A stretch of DNA of 40,762 bases from Neisseriaceae bacterium ESL0693 (GTDB taxonomy: Bacteria; Pseudomonadota; Gammaproteobacteria; Burkholderiales; Neisseriaceae), in assembly GCA_029433475.1 (NCBI GenBank), contig JAQTIE010000005.1, positions 179,878 to 220,639 of the forward strand, given 5' to 3'. This document shows positions 2,564 through 9,484 of this stretch, one piece after another. Positions within the stretch are counted from its first letter, which is position 1, and every line of letters starts with the position of its first letter. The position numbers and the translations under genes are program-made. The notes under the pieces were generated by a model. It saw only the letters and a program-made list of their open reading frames with translations, was not told the origin of the DNA and did not search any database.

Positions 2564-3358
2564 ATGTTAGAGTCATTAAATATGGATCAGGCTTTGGGAA
2601 TTGGTGCTGATACAGCGCCTTTTGTGCGGCCACACTGGCCGGCGCCAGCCAATGTGCATGGTCTGATCAGTACCCGTCAGGGTGGGGTCAGTCAGGCGCC
2701 GTTTGCCAGTTTGAATGTGGGGCTGCATGTGGGCGATGACGTGGAAGCAGTCAGGCAGAATCGGGCGCGGGTGCAGGCTCAGGTTCAATATCCGCTGGCT
2801 TATCTGAATCAGACCCACAGTACGATGGTGGTATCGGCATCGGCAGCACTGGCGGCTTTGGCCACAGGTACGCCATTGAATGCAGATGCCAGCATTGCCA
2901 GACAAGGCGAGGCTGTGGCCTGTGCGGTAATGACTGCCGATTGTTTGCCAGTCTTGCTGTGTGATTATGCTGGCTCTGTGGTGGCGGCGGTACATGCCGG
3001 CTGGCGTGGTCTGGCAGGCGGGGTGATTCAGAATACGATAGAGGCCATGGCAGTACCACCAGCTGAAATCATGGCTTATCTCGGGCCTGCCATCGGGCCG
3101 GACGCTTTTGAAGTAGGACAAGATGTCTATGATGCCTTTTGTCAGTGTGTGGCTGAAGCCGATAAGGCTTTTGTATCCATCGGTACCCAGCATTATCTGG
3201 CGGATATTTATGCTTTGGCGCGTTATATTCTGGCTGATATGGGCATACATCGGGTATTCGGCGGTACTGAGTGTACGGTCTTGCAGCGGCAACAGTTTTT
3301 TTCTTATCGGCGTGATGGCCAGACCGGACGTATGGTGAGCGCGATCTGGCTGACTTAG
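2564..3358 (+). CDS. pgeF: PgeF (YfiH/DUF152 family), peptidoglycan editing factor / multicopper-type oxidoreductase
   Basis: Family members remove wrongly incorporated residues from peptidoglycan precursors (PgeF activity in E. coli). They have also been described as polyphenol oxidases or purine nucleoside-active enzymes with a Cys/His metal site. The sequence has the conserved blocks STRQGGVSQAPFASLNVGLH near the N-terminus, YLNQTHS, the metal-site block VMTADCLPVLLCD, and VHAGWRGLAGG. It ends with the family-typical FFSYRRDGQTGRMVSAIWL. I place the start at ATG 2564, which has the good Shine-Dalgarno AGGAAGG at 2554-2560; the GTG at 2561 is closer than ideal. The product is 264 aa, usual for the family. 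It sits directly behind rluD, an arrangement common in proteobacteria, and is followed by a clear terminator. Confidence 0.9.
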   Translation: MLESLNMDQALGIGADTAPFVRPHWPAPANVHGLISTRQGGVSQAPFASLNVGLHVGDDVEAVRQNRARVQAQVQYPLAYLNQTHSTMVVSASAALAALATGTPLNADASIARQGEAVACAVMTADCLPVLLCDYAGSVVAAVHAGWRGLAGGVIQNTIEAMAVPPAEIMAYLGPAIGPDAFEVGQDVYDAFCQCVAEADKAFVSIGTQHYLADIYALARYILADMGIHRVFGGTECTVLQRQQFFSYRRDGQTGRMVSAIWLT

Positions 3359-3407
3359 GCTGTTTGAGGGTAGTTATTCCCAGCCATGAATGTTTATCTG
3401 TAGGTCG

Positions 3408-3452
3408 ATCCGGTATCAATCAGGTGATGAATAGATACCGGATTTTATTTTA
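3408..3452 (+). terminator. Rho-independent terminator of rluD-pgeF
   Basis: A perfect 10-bp stem, ATCCGGTATC (3408-3417) with GATACCGGAT (3434-3443), is followed by a T-rich run TTTATTTTAT. It ends the rluD-pgeF operon and separates it from leuA. Confidence 0.85.
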
Positions 3453-3468
3453 TGCTCATTTTATTTGA

Positions 3469-3508
3469 GAAATAATTTACAAAATGTCTAAAATATAGAA
3501 ATTATTTC
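3469..3508. repeat. Inverted repeat in the leuA upstream region
   Basis: GAAATAATTT (3469-3478) is repeated as its exact inverse AAATTATTTC (3499-3508) across a 20-bp AT-rich gap, about 110 bp ahead of the first leuA start. It could be a distal operator or part of the pgeF 3' region. The sequence alone does not decide. Confidence 0.5.
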
Positions 3509-3536
3509 AGATTAAGCTCAAATAATACTTGTCTTG

Positions 3537-3609
3537 TTGTCCAATTAACCGTATATTGGGTTTTTATTGATGCAATAGTTATCCTGTTAATTTTAAATTG
3601 GACAAAAGG
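3537..3609 (+). promoter_or_regulatory. leuA leader: inverted repeats overlapping the first ribosome binding site
   Basis: TTGTCCAATT (3537-3546) and its exact inverse AATTGGACAA (3596-3605) flank a 49-bp spacer. The left arm contains CCAAT (3541-3545), which can also pair with a nearer ATTGG (3555-3559), so two RNA hairpins would exclude each other. The right arm runs straight into AAAAGG (3604-3609), the Shine-Dalgarno of the ATG at 3616. Two readings fit: paired operator sites for a repressor (perhaps the helix-turn-helix domain encoded just downstream), or an RNA switch that hides the ribosome site. The repeats are seen directly; the function is inferred. Confidence 0.55.
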
Positions 3610-3615
3610 TCTATC

Positions 3616-5400
3616 ATGCAGCTCAATATTGACCGTTTAATTGCGTATTTCGGTGGCGTAAACAAACTGGCCGAGGCACTGAAACAACATGATCCTGAAG
3701 ATGCCGCTTCAGCGGCTGCAATTTATAAGTGGCGAACACGGAAATCATTACCACTTAACCAGTTACAAAAAATTATTGCGCTGGCTGAACGTCAGGGTAA
3801 ACCGCTGGACTTAAATGTTTTTATGCAACGTAATACGTTTATGGAGAAACCAAGAATGTCTGGTCATGATCGAGTCATTATTTTTGATACTACTTTGCGC
3901 GATGGTGAGCAATCTCCTGGTGCGGCAATGACCAAGGAAGAAAAAATCCGTATTGCCCGTCAGCTGGAAAAGCTGGGGGTGGATGTAATGGAGGTTGGGT
4001 TTGCCGCTGCAAGCCCGGGCGACTTTGATGCCATCCACAGTATTGCCGAGGTTATTGAACACAGTACTGTGTGCTCGCTGGCGCGTGCCAATGAGCGTGA
4101 TATCCGTCAGGCAGGTGAGGCCATCAAACCGGCTAAACGGCGCCGTATTCATACGTTTATTGCCACCAGTCCTTTGCATATGGAACATAAATTACGTATG
4201 AAACCGCAAGCGGTGAAGGAGGCGGCGGTTAAAGCGGTTAAAATAGCACGCGAATATACGGATGATGTAGAGTTTTCGTGTGAAGATGCGCTCAGAAGTG
4301 ATCCGGATTTTCTGATTGATATTTGCAGTGCAGTGATTGCTGCCGGTGCCACTACCATTAATTTACCGGATACGGTGGGGTATTCAGTACCGTTTGTTAC
4401 GGAAGCTTTTTTCTATAAAATCATTAATCAGACACAAGGGGGAGATCAGATCATCTGGTCAACCCATTGTCATAATGATCTGGGCATGGCCGTGGCCAAT
4501 TCATTATCAGCTGTGGCGGGTGGTGCCCGTCAGGTGGAATGTACAATTAATGGTCTGGGTGAGCGTGCAGGTAATGCCAGTCTGGAAGAAGTAGTCATGG
4601 CACTGAAAACCCGTCAGGACATTTTCGGATTAGAAACCCATATTGATACTACCCAGATTGTGCCAACGTCCAAGCTGGTTTCCACGATTACCGGTTATCC
4701 CATCCAGCCAAATAAAGCCATTGTGGGGGCAAATGCCTTTGCGCATGAATCAGGCATTCATCAGGATGGCATTCTGAAGTGTCGTGAAACCTATGAAATT
4801 ATGTCGGCCGAATCGGTGGGCTGGAGTGCGAACCGGCTGACGCTGGGTAAATTATCCGGCCGTAATGCGTTTCGCAATAAATTGCAACAATTGGGTATTG
4901 AACTGGAAAGTGAAGAAGTTTTAAATGCGGCGTTTGCACGCTTTAAAGAGCTGGCCGATAAGAAGCGTGAGATTTTTGATGAGGATTTACACGCCTTGGT
5001 TTCTGATCAGATGAGTAATCAGCCTACTGATCGTTATAAATATATTTCATTGCGGATTCATACCGAAACCGGCGAAGCACCCAATGCGGAAATTGTATTC
5101 AGTGATCATGGGGTGGAAAAACGGGCTTCTGGCCAAGGCTCGGGGCCGATTGATGCAGTATTCAAATCGATTGAATCTGAAGTCGATAGTCAGGCTCGGT
5201 TAGAATTGTATTCGGTCACGGCCATTACCGCAGGTACCGAAAGCCAGGGAGAGGTTACGGTGCGTCTGGCGCGCGAGCATCAGCTCTTCAGTGGCCAAGG
5301 TGCGGATACAGATATTCTGGTGGCCAGTGCCAAAGCCTATCTGTCGGCATTAAACCGGTTGGAAAATGGTCCGCGCGTTAAGGCACAAGGGCATATCTGA
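3616..5400 (+). CDS. leuA: 2-isopropylmalate synthase LeuA with an in-frame N-terminal helix-turn-helix domain
   Basis: LeuA condenses acetyl-CoA with 2-oxoisovalerate, the first committed step of leucine synthesis. The catalytic part starts near residue 81 (ATG 3856) with [19 protein letters not shown]. It carries the metal/substrate blocks [15 protein letters not shown] and [14 protein letters not shown] and HESGIHQDG, and ends in a C-terminal leucine-sensing domain that includes [15 protein letters not shown]. Alone this part is 514 aa, the usual LeuA size. Fused in frame ahead of it are ~75 residues that look like a Cro/YdaS-type helix-turn-helix: [12 protein letters not shown], then [20 protein letters not shown]. 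From ATG 3616 (Shine-Dalgarno AAAAGG, 6-7 bp spacing) the fusion is 594 aa; a TTG at 3598 would add six residues. There is no stop codon between the two parts. A second ribosome site before ATG 3856 could give the plain enzyme from the same mRNA. The enzyme assignment is firm; the regulatory role of the fused domain is inference. Confidence 0.92.
3843..3858 (+). promoter_or_regulatory. Possible internal ribosome binding site for LeuA without the helix-turn-helix domain
   Basis: GGAG at 3843-3846 lies 9 bases before the ATG at 3856, where homology to ordinary LeuA proteins begins ([18 protein letters not shown]). A nearer ATG at 3841 lies in the same frame. This spacing would allow independent initiation, giving two LeuA forms from one frame. 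Confidence 0.45.
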
Positions 5401-5431
5401 ATATAACGCATGTATTGATCTGCAAAGCTAA

Positions 5432-5466
5432 AACCGGCTGATGCTGTTGAAAGGCATCAGTCGGTT
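5432..5466 (+). terminator. Hairpin terminator of leuA
   Basis: A 13-base stem, AACCGGCTGATGC (5432-5444) with GCATCAGTCGGTT (5454-5466), has one G-T pair and an 8- to 9-base loop. It lies 31 bp after the leuA stop. Only a weak T stretch follows, so termination may be incomplete or Rho-assisted. Confidence 0.6.
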
Positions 5467-5738
5467 GTGTAATGAATCACCGCCTCAGTATAATGGTTTG
5501 AAATCCCAAATATAGGGCGCAATCGATCTGAGTTCGCGTGATGGATGGTGTGACTGTATCTATCAGCAATGAATCAAACTGGATATAGTCTGATGGCTGA
5601 TCGGATAAACATAATCAATCAAAGATAAATAATTATAATAGCATATATTGTCTAAATAAATCCATGATATGAAAAATTAAATGATTTTAGAATAAATCTG
5701 TTTGGTGATATTGATCTATCTTGTATCATAAAATGATT
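5467..5738. other. Gene-free spacer between convergent leuA and the nicotinamidase-like gene
   Basis: With the leuA hairpin this makes a 338-bp gene-free stretch. It becomes AT-rich toward the right end. I see no open frame, RNA gene or convincing repeat in it. Confidence 0.5.
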
Positions 5739-6494: not shown

Positions 6495-7694
6495 TTAATG
6501 AAGCTGAGCCTTGATAACGTCGGCATTTAATAAGTCCTGAGTGAGGTCATAAGTATTGTCAGCGGTGGATTGAATGGTAAAATTGGGTTTTTGGGTATAA
6601 TCCAGTTTAAACCAGCCAGTTATCTTCATTTTGATTGATTTATCCTCAAATTTACCTTGATAGTCAATCTGTTGATACATTCCTACGATTCTTCCTTGTC
6701 TGTCCAGATAAAGATCAGTGGTTACCGGTACATTCAGTAGTGTTTGATCAAATGGTGCCTCTGGGTTGGCCAGTATCTTTTGCATTTTTGCCTGCCCATC
6801 TTCCAGGGTTTTTAAGAGGGTTAATATCTGATCATAACCTTTCTTTTTATCTGCCGGCGCTTTTTTGGCCTGTTCGGTCAGCTGAGTATGTATGCTATTA
6901 AGAAGCGCTGCATTCGCTTTGTTACTTTCAGCACTCGCTACTTTTAAACGGACATGATATTTGGCCTTAAAGCGTTTTCCGTTTTCGTCTTCAGGGTCTG
7001 CTTTAGTCAGGCTTTGGTTATCCACAACGGCATAACTGGCATCAAGCGCCTGAGGCAAAGTCTGGCATAATTCTTGTAAGGGTAGATAGTCATAGTATTT
7101 AGACGGTAATGTAAATGCAAAATACTGACGGTTCAGCTGTTGACTGCTGATCTGATGATTCGGGCTGAGGGTTTGTATTTCTTTACTGATGATGGAGCGT
7201 AAGCTGGAAGGATCAATGACCAGTGTCATGGTATTTGAATTGAACTGCATGGGTAAATTACCATTAATGGTAACGGGTGATTCGGAAGACTGCACCGTCA
7301 TGGCTGGCAAAATCTCAAATTTCTGCTGTTTAAAATCTTGTGCCCCATTGAGATCAATGGATATGTTTGCATCAATATGGTGGCGGTCTGTAGTAAGGGC
7401 AGTATTGTTTTGGTCATCTCTTGACGGGTTGGTCAAAGTCGATGGATTCTGGCCAGATTCGGTTAAATCAAAGTCAAAAGTATAATTACCATTGAAATTA
7501 TAACTATTTTTATCATCAAAAGATTTTTGTATGGCGATATGGATTAATTCTTTAGGGTTTTTTTGAGATAAATCATAATGGCTATGCCAGTAGGCATACG
7601 CGCCGCCGGCAATGGCGACACAGCCAATGATGGTAAGAGCTAATATTTTGGGTGTTTTCTTTGAGCTGTTTGTTTTGTTGTCAGCAGAAGGCAT
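6495..7694 (-). CDS. Unknown membrane-anchored protein, paralogue 1 of 3
   Basis: I do not recognise the family. The 399-aa product starts with a short polar, basic stretch (MPSADNKTNSSKKT), then one membrane segment at ~15-36 ending AIAGGAYAYWHSHYDLS. A large hydrophilic region follows, expected to be periplasmic. It shares this N-terminus with the genes at 8339 and 9796, as well as internal blocks such as PKELIHIAIQK, YNFNGNY, LPMQFNSNTMTLVIDPSS, QYFAFTLPS, FKAKYHVRL and DKKKGYDQIL, and a C-terminal block KLDYTQKPNFTIQS...NTYDL. The start is set at 7694, where AAAGGAAAAATA precedes ATG, as in the two paralogues; the frame opens six codons earlier. A Cys sits inside the membrane segment (IIGC) but is not in lipobox context in paralogue 2, so a lipoprotein is unlikely. 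Confidence 0.85.
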   Translation of the reverse strand: MPSADNKTNSSKKTPKILALTIIGCVAIAGGAYAYWHSHYDLSQKNPKELIHIAIQKSFDDKNSYNFNGNYTFDFDLTESGQNPSTLTNPSRDDQNNTALTTDRHHIDANISIDLNGAQDFKQQKFEILPAMTVQSSESPVTINGNLPMQFNSNTMTLVIDPSSLRSIISKEIQTLSPNHQISSQQLNRQYFAFTLPSKYYDYLPLQELCQTLPQALDASYAVVDNQSLTKADPEDENGKRFKAKYHVRLKVASAESNKANAALLNSIHTQLTEQAKKAPADKKKGYDQILTLLKTLEDGQAKMQKILANPEAPFDQTLLNVPVTTDLYLDRQGRIVGMYQQIDYQGKFEDKSIKMKITGWFKLDYTQKPNFTIQSTADNTYDLTQDLLNADVIKAQLH

Positions 7695-7767
7695 TATTTT
7701 TCCTTTAATCATTAATTATCAGCCAATCATTGGCTTATACGTAAACATACTTTGTATTTATTGTATG

Positions 7768-8338: not shown

Positions 8339-9484
8339 TTAATCAGTGGCCGCATTCATGATGGCATCGACCAGTAAATCTCGATTCAGATCATAGGTAT
8401 TGCTGGGAGTGGACTGAATGGTGAAGTGGGGTTGTTGGGTGTAATCCACTTTAAGCCAGCCGCCAATTTTCATGAAATTATCATTATTGAGTCGATAATC
8501 AATTTGTTGGCGCAGTCCGATCAATCTTCCTTGTTTATCCATGTAAAAATCAACAATATAAGGTAGGTCAGACATTGCTTTATCCGCCGGGTCGGTAGAA
8601 TTGATCCATTCTTGCTGCATTTGTTTATGTAAATCCTCGATTAAAGTCAGATAAGTTAATATCTGATCATAACCTTGCTTTTTGTCTGTTGGCGCTTGTC
8701 TGGCCTGATCGGCCAATTGGGTATGTATGCTATTCAGGAGTGTAGCATCCATTTTATTGTTTTGTAGTAAAGTGGTTTTTAACCGCACATGATATCTGGC
8801 GTTCAGACGTTTGCTGTCTGCATCTTCTGTATTTTCTTTGGTCAGACTGTTGTTATCTATAATGTCATAACTGGCGTGTGTTGCCTGCGGCAGTGTGTGC
8901 AATAATTCTTTTAAGGGCAGGTGAGCATAGGATTGAGGTGGCAGGGTAAACGCAAAGTATTGTTTGTTGATCTGTTGACCGGGCAGACTTTCCTGTATCA
9001 ATTCATCTACTTTCTGACGGAAATTGGATGGGTCCAGTATCAGTGTCATGCGGTTGAAATCCATCTGCATGGGTAAGCTGCCGTTAATGGTTGCTTCGGG
9101 CAGGTTAGACGTCAGTGTGGGAATGATTTCCAGTTTTTGTTGTTTGGAATCCAGAGCGCCATTAAAATGAACAGCTAAATGAATATTCTGATTTTCCAGT
9201 GTGGCGGAGCTGGTGTCTTCAGTTTCTGTGGTTAGTGATTCTTCTGATTCTCGTACTTGCAGATCAAAAGCATAGTGACCATTGAAATTGTAACTGTTGT
9301 CAGCGGTGTATATTTTTTGTGTGGCAATATCAATTAATTCACGCGGGCTTTTGTTCGAGAGGTCATAGTGTTTATGCCAGTAGGCATAAGCGCCGCCGGC
9401 AATGATCACACAAACCATGATCACAACAGTTAATATCGTTGAAATTTTCTTTGAACCAGAGGTATTGTTGTCAGTCGATGGCAT
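8339..9484 (-). CDS. Unknown membrane-anchored protein, paralogue 2 of 3
   Basis: The 381-aa product is a diverged copy of the proteins at 6495 and 9796. It has the same plan: polar basic start (MPSTDNNTSGSKKIS), one membrane segment (~15-36) ending IIAGGAYAYWHKHYDLS, then a large hydrophilic, presumably periplasmic part. Shared blocks include PRELIDIATQKIY, YNFNGHYAFDLQV, LPMQMDFNRMTLILDPSNF, KQYFAFTLPP, LNARYHVRLK, DKKQGYDQIL, and KVDYTQQPHFTIQS near the C-terminus. The membrane-segment Cys is preceded by Val here (IMVC), which argues against lipidation in the whole family. The Shine-Dalgarno AAAGGAAAATA precedes the ATG. It lacks the upstream ATAAAAGCAT element of the other two, so it may be regulated differently. 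Function unknown. Confidence 0.85.
   Translation of the reverse strand: MPSTDNNTSGSKKISTILTVVIMVCVIIAGGAYAYWHKHYDLSNKSPRELIDIATQKIYTADNSYNFNGHYAFDLQVRESEESLTTETEDTSSATLENQNIHLAVHFNGALDSKQQKLEIIPTLTSNLPEATINGSLPMQMDFNRMTLILDPSNFRQKVDELIQESLPGQQINKQYFAFTLPPQSYAHLPLKELLHTLPQATHASYDIIDNNSLTKENTEDADSKRLNARYHVRLKTTLLQNNKMDATLLNSIHTQLADQARQAPTDKKQGYDQILTYLTLIEDLHKQMQQEWINSTDPADKAMSDLPYIVDFYMDKQGRLIGLRQQIDYRLNNDNFMKIGGWLKVDYTQQPHFTIQSTPSNTYDLNRDLLVDAIMNAATD

Follow-up and report, generated by a model that had tools for sequence, protein, structure and literature searches.

What does it mean when the frame of a leuA gene runs on upstream, without a stop, for some 80 codons beyond the place where ordinary LeuA begins? 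The question is posed by a 40,762-nucleotide stretch of Neisseriaceae bacterium ESL0693 (contig JAQTIE010000005.1, positions 179,878 to 220,639), here called the window. A first-pass annotation, made from the letters alone, had proposed that the extension is a Cro-like DNA-binding domain, that the frame has two translation starts, and that the product might be an enzyme of leucine synthesis that regulates its own gene. Comparison with relatives points to an old fusion, to selection on the added domain, to an operator that is tied to the domain, and to conservation of both starts. We conclude that the long form of this LeuA is very probably a DNA-binding regulator of leuA and leuC.

As had been claimed, the frame is open throughout. 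It runs from position 3571 to the TGA at 5398-5400 and encodes 594 amino acids (aa) from the ATG at 3616. Residues 86 to 580 form a complete bacterial LeuA (TIGR00973, 689.5 bits, cut-off 598.7; NF002087, a LeuA model, 868.7 bits against a cut-off of 729), with the catalytic, middle, and LeuA_dimer regulatory domains all there. Ordinary LeuA sets in at about residue 81. The closest solved chain, PDB entry 3rmj, which we take to be the 2-isopropylmalate synthase of N. meningitidis, aligns from residue 81, and its matching region starts at the internal methionine; the NCBIfam LeuA model aligns from residue 83. The roles of the LeuA catalytic motifs are known from ordinary LeuA, and their columns are invariant or nearly so across 38 sequences. 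The fused frame is the sole LeuA match in its genome, and the protein is LeuA by every test made.

The first 80 residues belong by score to NF046037, a helix-turn-helix (HTH) domain named carph-isopro (Table 1), a comparison that speaks for the predicted Cro-like DNA-binding role. All 40 domains that we aligned, from many genera, match the model (40/40). Nine residues are invariant among them, namely A34, A35, I36, Y37, K38, and W39 (AAIYKW), R42, P46, and Q49, and the extension keeps 43 to 79% amino acid identity across genera and families. The AlphaFold2 model of the domain (predicted local distance difference test [pLDDT] 86.3) has five helices, at residues 5-11, 15-25, 33-42, 47-59, and 66-69. 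Its membership among the Cro-like folds is weakly supported. Pfam P22_Cro scores 19.9 bits, under its cut-off of 30.2, two phage-regulator PHROGs match weakly, and the best Foldseek match is N15 Cro on DNA (template modeling [TM] score 0.68 by target length, a weak match, E 0.23). A flexible tail begins at about residue 72. The full-length AlphaFold model is poor and was used for this linker alone; in it, residues 72-83 have a pLDDT below 50, as would be expected of a flexible tether.

The ratio of nonsynonymous to synonymous substitution rates (dN/dS) is 0.04 in the first 70 codons versus 0.093 in 350 catalytic codons, over 498 within-genus pairs left after those with infinite or out-of-range distances were dropped. 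The ratio is only rough, because synonymous divergence in the domain averages 1.28, close to saturation, and the pairs cannot count as independent. As far as this comparison goes, the domain is under purifying selection, and an intact enzyme and an intact, predicted DNA-binding domain are joined in one conserved chain. No further match to the NF046037 family was found in the window's own genome at an E value of 0.001. In other genomes, stand-alone 63-aa frames carry the same domain at about the cut-off of 38 bits (G002:C6:18849-18971, 38.4 bits; G010:C26:134755-134868, 37 bits); these may be prophage regulators, and the domain may have come from such frames. In genomes G041 and G046, frames other than leuA, of 513 and 543 aa, score barely above the cut-off.

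The domain scores above cut-off in 76 of the 83 genomes of the window's family, and the fusion is present in 77, including one (G081) that is cut by the contig end inside the domain. One of the remaining genomes (G017) has LeuA without the domain; in five (G004, G036, G090, G091, and G104), which are 58 to 86% complete, no LeuA reaches the threshold used. Named genomes were scanned with the domain as the query, so that LeuA without the domain is undetectable there; the loci kept, the best 80 of 103 relatives, are all fused in frame (80/80). They include Snodgrassella, Neisseria, Eikenella, Alysiella, Stenoxybacter, and others. Forty-two named loci lie outside Neisseriaceae, in Chromobacterium, Vogesella, Aquitalea, Crenobacter, Chitinibacter, Andreprevotia, and further genera. 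On account of their Vogesella-like sequences, we counted among these loci two metagenome bins that carry the label Neisseriaceae. Judged by frame length alone, the family of G040 has 44 of 44 LeuA frames, in 43 genomes, of at least 599 aa, and the family of G049 has three LeuA frames of 607 to 624 aa. G040 and G049 are also the sole genomes with the fusion above cut-off among 24 at the order level. The spread is wide, and the fusion therefore looks old and ancestral to Neisseriales.

A sequencing error or a lost stop codon as the origin of the long frame is ruled out by the fused frame in all 80 named loci and in 77 of 83 family genomes. A phage-borne gene was rejected too, since the scan of viral contigs confirmed no relative (50 stretches fit the pattern, and none passed tblastn). 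Some genomes hold two copies of LeuA. G049 has a second, shorter one beside the fused one (421-aa frame, G049:C2:701116-702261), both copies of G087 are fused (L081 and L098; 4% contamination), and the two LeuA frames of G124 are both long (599 and 605 aa).

A recurring dyad, TRGAC-N5-GTCYA, and its half-sites are seen upstream of leuA in relatives. We regard the dyad as the likely operator, and a leuA promoter has as many as three predicted copies. The nine promoters aligned are those of the window, seven Snodgrassella, and one Neisseriaceae bin. AATGTCYAA, at operator 1, is found in 8 of the 9; CTTG and TGTCYAA followed by TATATT, in the region of operator 2, and TTRGACAAAARGT before the ATG, at operator 3, are found in all 9. 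The inverted pair that the first-pass annotation had noted at 3537-3546 and 3596-3605 is present, and we read its arms as half-sites of separate operators, not as one long palindrome.

At least one half-site lies within 320 bp upstream of every fused locus counted (79/79; G081 was excluded, since its contig ends inside the domain), against means per 320 bp of 0.31 in shuffled sequence and 0.18 in coding sequence. Three loci have one half-site, 19 have two, 37 have three, 16 have four, and 4 have five. In contrast, no half-site precedes 15 of the 19 LeuA genes that lack the domain; of the others, two have one and two have two, and the full dyad is absent from all 19. This comparison supports the idea that the fused enzyme regulates its own gene. 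The motif was derived mainly from Neisseriaceae, and the 42 outside loci served as a held-out set. A site matching at least 9 of 10 consensus positions is present in 28 of these 42; such sites occur in 3.8% of shuffles and in none of the 124 coding windows. The best-scoring site lies at -133 to -117 in 38 of 42. The case for the operator is positional and comparative. The modal distance per genus from the distal dyad to the next half-site, with leuA and leuC pooled, takes 19 values, of which five fall at 52-54, seven at 60-63, three at 71-74, and four at 31-44. The helical phasing (R 0.63, attained by a fraction of 0.00075 of a crude uniform null) is suggestive of spacing by whole helical turns. 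RNA-based control was rejected; there is no Rfam match at gathering scores within 3300-5700 and no terminator-like site within 3360-3620.

One genome of the window's own family offers what may be a natural experiment. G017 is 99% complete, and its LeuA frame is not preceded by the domain. Neither of two motifs of the domain occurs in any of the six frames of the 4.5 kb analysed, and the single NF046037 hit of the genome is weak and on a different contig. By eye, its leuA promoter is kept, as TTGTCA-17-TATATT in the same geometry as in the window. No half-site is found in the 320 bp upstream of leuA or the 350 bp upstream of leuC. Domain and sites thus appear to have been lost together with the promoter retained. 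Across the genomes compared, a predicted operator at the gene itself and in its pathway covaries with the domain, in one co-loss within the family.

The proposed self-regulation seems to reach beyond leuA. The window's own genome has one strict dyad just upstream of leuC, and predicted operators recur there in relatives. We scored up to 350 bp upstream of leuC, ilvC, ilvD, and ilvB in 30 genomes, 24 fused and 6 HTH-less; the ilvD rows of G019, G021, G044, and G051 were dropped before counting. Sites of at least 9/10 are found at leuC in 16 of 23 fused genomes versus 0 of 6 HTH-less ones. The count is 17 of 24 with G015, whose leuC had no frame in the main script and was scored apart (two half-sites, one 9/10 site). 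The corresponding counts in fused and HTH-less genomes are 4/24 and 0/6 at ilvC, 0/22 and 0/4 at ilvD, and 1/24 and 0/6 at ilvB. At least one half-site is present at leuC in 19 of 23 fused genomes versus 0 of 6, and at ilvD in 2 of 22 and 0 of 4.

A large regulon was rejected: of the 17 strict-dyad loci, in this and other genomes, whose surroundings we read, 11 have the site inside a reading frame. The others lie before leuC or ilvC (L035, L220, L230, and L231) or between other genes (L036 and L218). Matched by position, the strict dyads at G016:C1:1200219, G016:C1:1155838, and G023:C1:1884801 belong to leuC, ilvC, and leuA, respectively. In some genera ilvC may also belong to the regulon. Two full dyads lie upstream of ilvC in G016 (L231, positions 1501 and 1744) and one in G019. 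G016 and G023 have seven strict dyads each, with zero for the reversed control; four in G016 are at leuA, leuC, and ilvC, two in G023 are at leuA and leuC, and one in each is near a pheT-like gene (L227 and L228). Half-sites also occur about 340 to 300 bp upstream of ilvB (-340 to -300) in all four tested genomes of the window's genus (G000, G005, G006, and G012).

We suggest that the LeuA of Neisseriales would be a bifunctional enzyme-regulator. Ordinary LeuA dimerizes through its own domains. A long-form homodimer held by these interfaces would place two tethered HTH domains on each dyad, and two domains per dimer would fit the twofold site. The dyads bound would be those of the leuA promoter (the distal site, the promoter spacer, and the ribosome site) and of the leuC promoter, and sites several helical turns apart could cooperate by looping. 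The positions of the predicted sites, within the promoter spacer and across the ribosome site, make the long form a probable repressor. In ordinary LeuA the C-terminal LeuA_dimer domain takes leucine as its ligand, and leucine is for that reason a fairly likely main signal. Leucine bound there would lead to repression of leuA, leuC, and the genes behind leuC.

Table 1. Features of the fused leuA locus, in window coordinates
Feature	Position	Strand	Detail
Operator 1, distal, TTTACAAAATGTCTA	3476..3490	.	8/10 consensus positions; candidate
Operator 2, core promoter	3529..3543	.	8/10; half-site TGTCCA 3538-3543 in -35/-10 spacer; candidate
Promoter TTGTCT-17-TATATT (-35, -10)	3529..3557	+	
Operator 3, TGGACAAAAGGTCTA, overlapping long-form Shine-Dalgarno	3599..3613	.	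10/10; candidate
Long-form Shine-Dalgarno AAGG	3606..3609	+	
HTH-LeuA, long form	3616..5400	+	ATG 3616, 594 codons/aa
HTH (carph-isopro) domain, residues 1-80	3616..3855	+	NF046037 72.5 bits, cut-off 38
Third helix, residues 33-42	3712..3741	+	Probable DNA-recognition helix (predicted role)
Internal-start Shine-Dalgarno GGAG	3843..3846	+	Same signal 9-10 nucleotides before internal ATG in most relatives
Plain LeuA, short form	3856..5400	+	Internal ATG 3856, 514 aa
LeuA catalytic (HMGL-like) domain	3871..4680	+	PF00682 328.6 bits
LeuA_dimer allosteric domain, presumed leucine sensor	4969..5361	+	PF08502 124.8 bits; sensing from family knowledge

The strongest competitor concerns the signal and its sign. 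In fungi, the LeuA product alpha-isopropylmalate is a coactivator of Leu3. The long form could likewise bind the operators and report the state of the enzyme, through substrate or alpha-isopropylmalate and not leucine, or it could activate its targets. In favour of this, the protein keeps both its catalytic motifs and its regulatory domain. We hold this to be possible and yet doubtful. The placing of sites within the promoter spacer and on top of the Shine-Dalgarno points to occlusion, which speaks against activation, and the C-terminal ligand of ordinary LeuA speaks for leucine.

The second question is which proteins the gene yields. Each ATG has its own ribosome site (Table 1), as the first-pass annotation had stated. 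Of 80 fetched loci, 76 have a methionine among the 17 residues that precede the LeuA core (DTTLRDGEQ), as do all 42 outside loci, and the linker in which it lies is otherwise variable. In the fetched loci, the pairing energy with the anti-Shine-Dalgarno averages -6.1 at the internal ATG versus -2.5 at other in-frame ATGs of the same genes, 39 of 555 of which pair as strongly; outside Neisseriaceae it averages -7.4 versus -2.1, with 17 of 304 as strong. In 64 of 80 fetched loci GGAG precedes the ATG by 9 nucleotides and is in codon phase 2; in 29 of 42 outside loci it precedes the ATG by 10 nucleotides and is in codon phase 1. It encodes LEK or LER in the first group and QGR and similar in the second. 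Phase and encoded residues differ between the groups, and what is kept is therefore the nucleotide signal, not the peptide. The long-form start codon is at the same place in the 42 outside loci (ATG in 34, GTG in 8). By the sequence criterion of a conserved internal Shine-Dalgarno and start codon, this is predicted to be a dual-start gene whose two starts are both kept by selection, and both proteins are probably made.

Some loci depart from this pattern. GGAG is missing at the internal start in 8 of 80 fetched loci, beyond those without the methionine, and in 5 of 42 outside loci. The methionine itself is missing in 4 of 80 fetched loci (G018, G027, G033, and G014), which weighs against the two-start reading; some members seem to manage with the long form alone. 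The long form might then be the one product everywhere, and the internal start a relic of the ancestral leuA start. We think this unlikely, since a relic should decay and the internal Shine-Dalgarno persists across families in differing phases and over differing residues.

With the second start at 3856 giving plain LeuA, one gene would supply both regulator and enzyme. We tentatively propose, as a reading somewhat less likely than not, that the leucine-sensing, DNA-binding LeuA and the plain LeuA co-assemble and that the ratio of the two forms tunes repression of leuA and leuC. Mixed dimers would have one DNA-binding domain and would be unable to hold a dyad, and the ratio would itself be set where operator 3 overlaps the ribosome site. 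The enzyme would then be sensor, repressor, and its own titrator.

Several observations weigh against regulation by LeuA through these sites. On the protein side, the Foldseek match to Cro is weak, and the full-length model has a predicted TM score (pTM) of 0.49. On the DNA side, a threshold of 8/10 is uninformative (39 of 42 held-out loci versus 33% of shuffles and 29 of 124 coding windows), and at that threshold the leuC regions of 3 of 6 HTH-less genomes score too. Counted over the window's own genome, strict dyads do not outnumber their reversed control (5 versus 9), and the window shows no excess of sites with at most one mismatch (two versus 2.36 expected). Half-sites are unspecific, with 9/24 fused and 2/6 HTH-less genomes at ilvB and 7/24 and 2/6 at ilvC, and four fused genomes (G021, G024, G040, and G049) lack any at leuC. 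The helical-phasing test is based on a crude null. The link between domain and operator consists of the one co-loss in the family plus contrasts with distant families, to which the other five HTH-less genomes belong.

A rival reading has a different transcription factor, of Lrp or LysR type, as the user of the operators, with the HTH of LeuA serving another role. A meningococcal Lrp regulon is mentioned in passages of PMC3032703, and the global regulator NMB0573 responds to leucine and methionine according to passages of PMC4138514. We rate another factor as quite improbable. The sites track the fused domain and are absent where it is absent, including in G017 with its promoter kept; of the genes scored, leuA and leuC account for most of the strong sites; and a dyad suits a dimeric Cro-like domain. 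In the gonococcal anaerobic study (passages of PMC3032703), lack of oxygen induced N. gonorrhoeae leuA (leu1), and the study's table names no regulon for leu1, whereas lecA, for example, is marked Lrp. That the short form alone is made, with 3616-3855 a leader open by chance, is hardly credible: the matching of 3rmj from the internal methionine indicates that its makers took that start, and the low dN/dS of the extension, its identity across genera and families, and its fixed upstream start codon all speak against an untranslated leader.

An enzyme that regulates its own pathway has precedents. BirA, the group II biotin protein ligase-repressor, also represses its own pathway, according to the abstract of PMC4016012. 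It differs from the LeuA proposed here in enzyme and in pathway. We know of no second in-frame start in BirA. PutA, the proline dehydrogenase-repressor, differs in being catabolic, in having a ribbon-helix-helix domain, and in redox and membrane switching instead of end-product feedback. Like the proposed LeuA, it is an amino acid enzyme that represses its own operon (passages of PMC6978683). BzdR, a regulator with a shikimate-kinase-like domain, resembles HTH-LeuA in build; its line lost enzyme activity (both from the abstract of PMC3602430), whereas HTH-LeuA keeps its motifs and is the sole LeuA match in its genome. Ordinary bacterial LeuA (TIGR00973; 3rmj) is matched fully by residues 86-580 and has no DNA-binding domain.

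The earlier suggestion that no LeuA of this kind had been described holds in part. The architecture is catalogued by NCBI as NF046037, whose name, carph-isopro, suggests isopropylmalate synthases and therefore that NCBI had already seen it; the model line carries no function, operator, or regulon. In the open-access literature, among the matches listed, which were covered by titles and abstract openings with most subscription papers outside the scope, we found no account of a DNA-binding LeuA. The LeuA passages of PMC5399837 give no protein size.

Farther along the window, on the minus strand, 6495-7712 and 8339-9484 encode neighbouring proteins of 405 and 381 aa that are alike by eye. Each has a membrane-anchor-like N terminus, and the pair is perhaps a tandem duplication.

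If the proposal is true, leucine synthesis throughout a bacterial order that takes in Neisseria and the bee-gut symbiont Snodgrassella would have a named regulator, with its operator and its main targets. One leucine-binding chain would unite end-product feedback at the level of the enzyme with that at the level of transcription; the closest solved structure, 3rmj, is without the DNA-binding part. The conserved internal start would make this a clean case of one gene that yields an enzyme and its regulator. A two-form, self-titrating LeuA may have run leucine synthesis across Neisseriales, including the well-studied Neisseria, unnoticed because the internal start was taken for the start of the gene.
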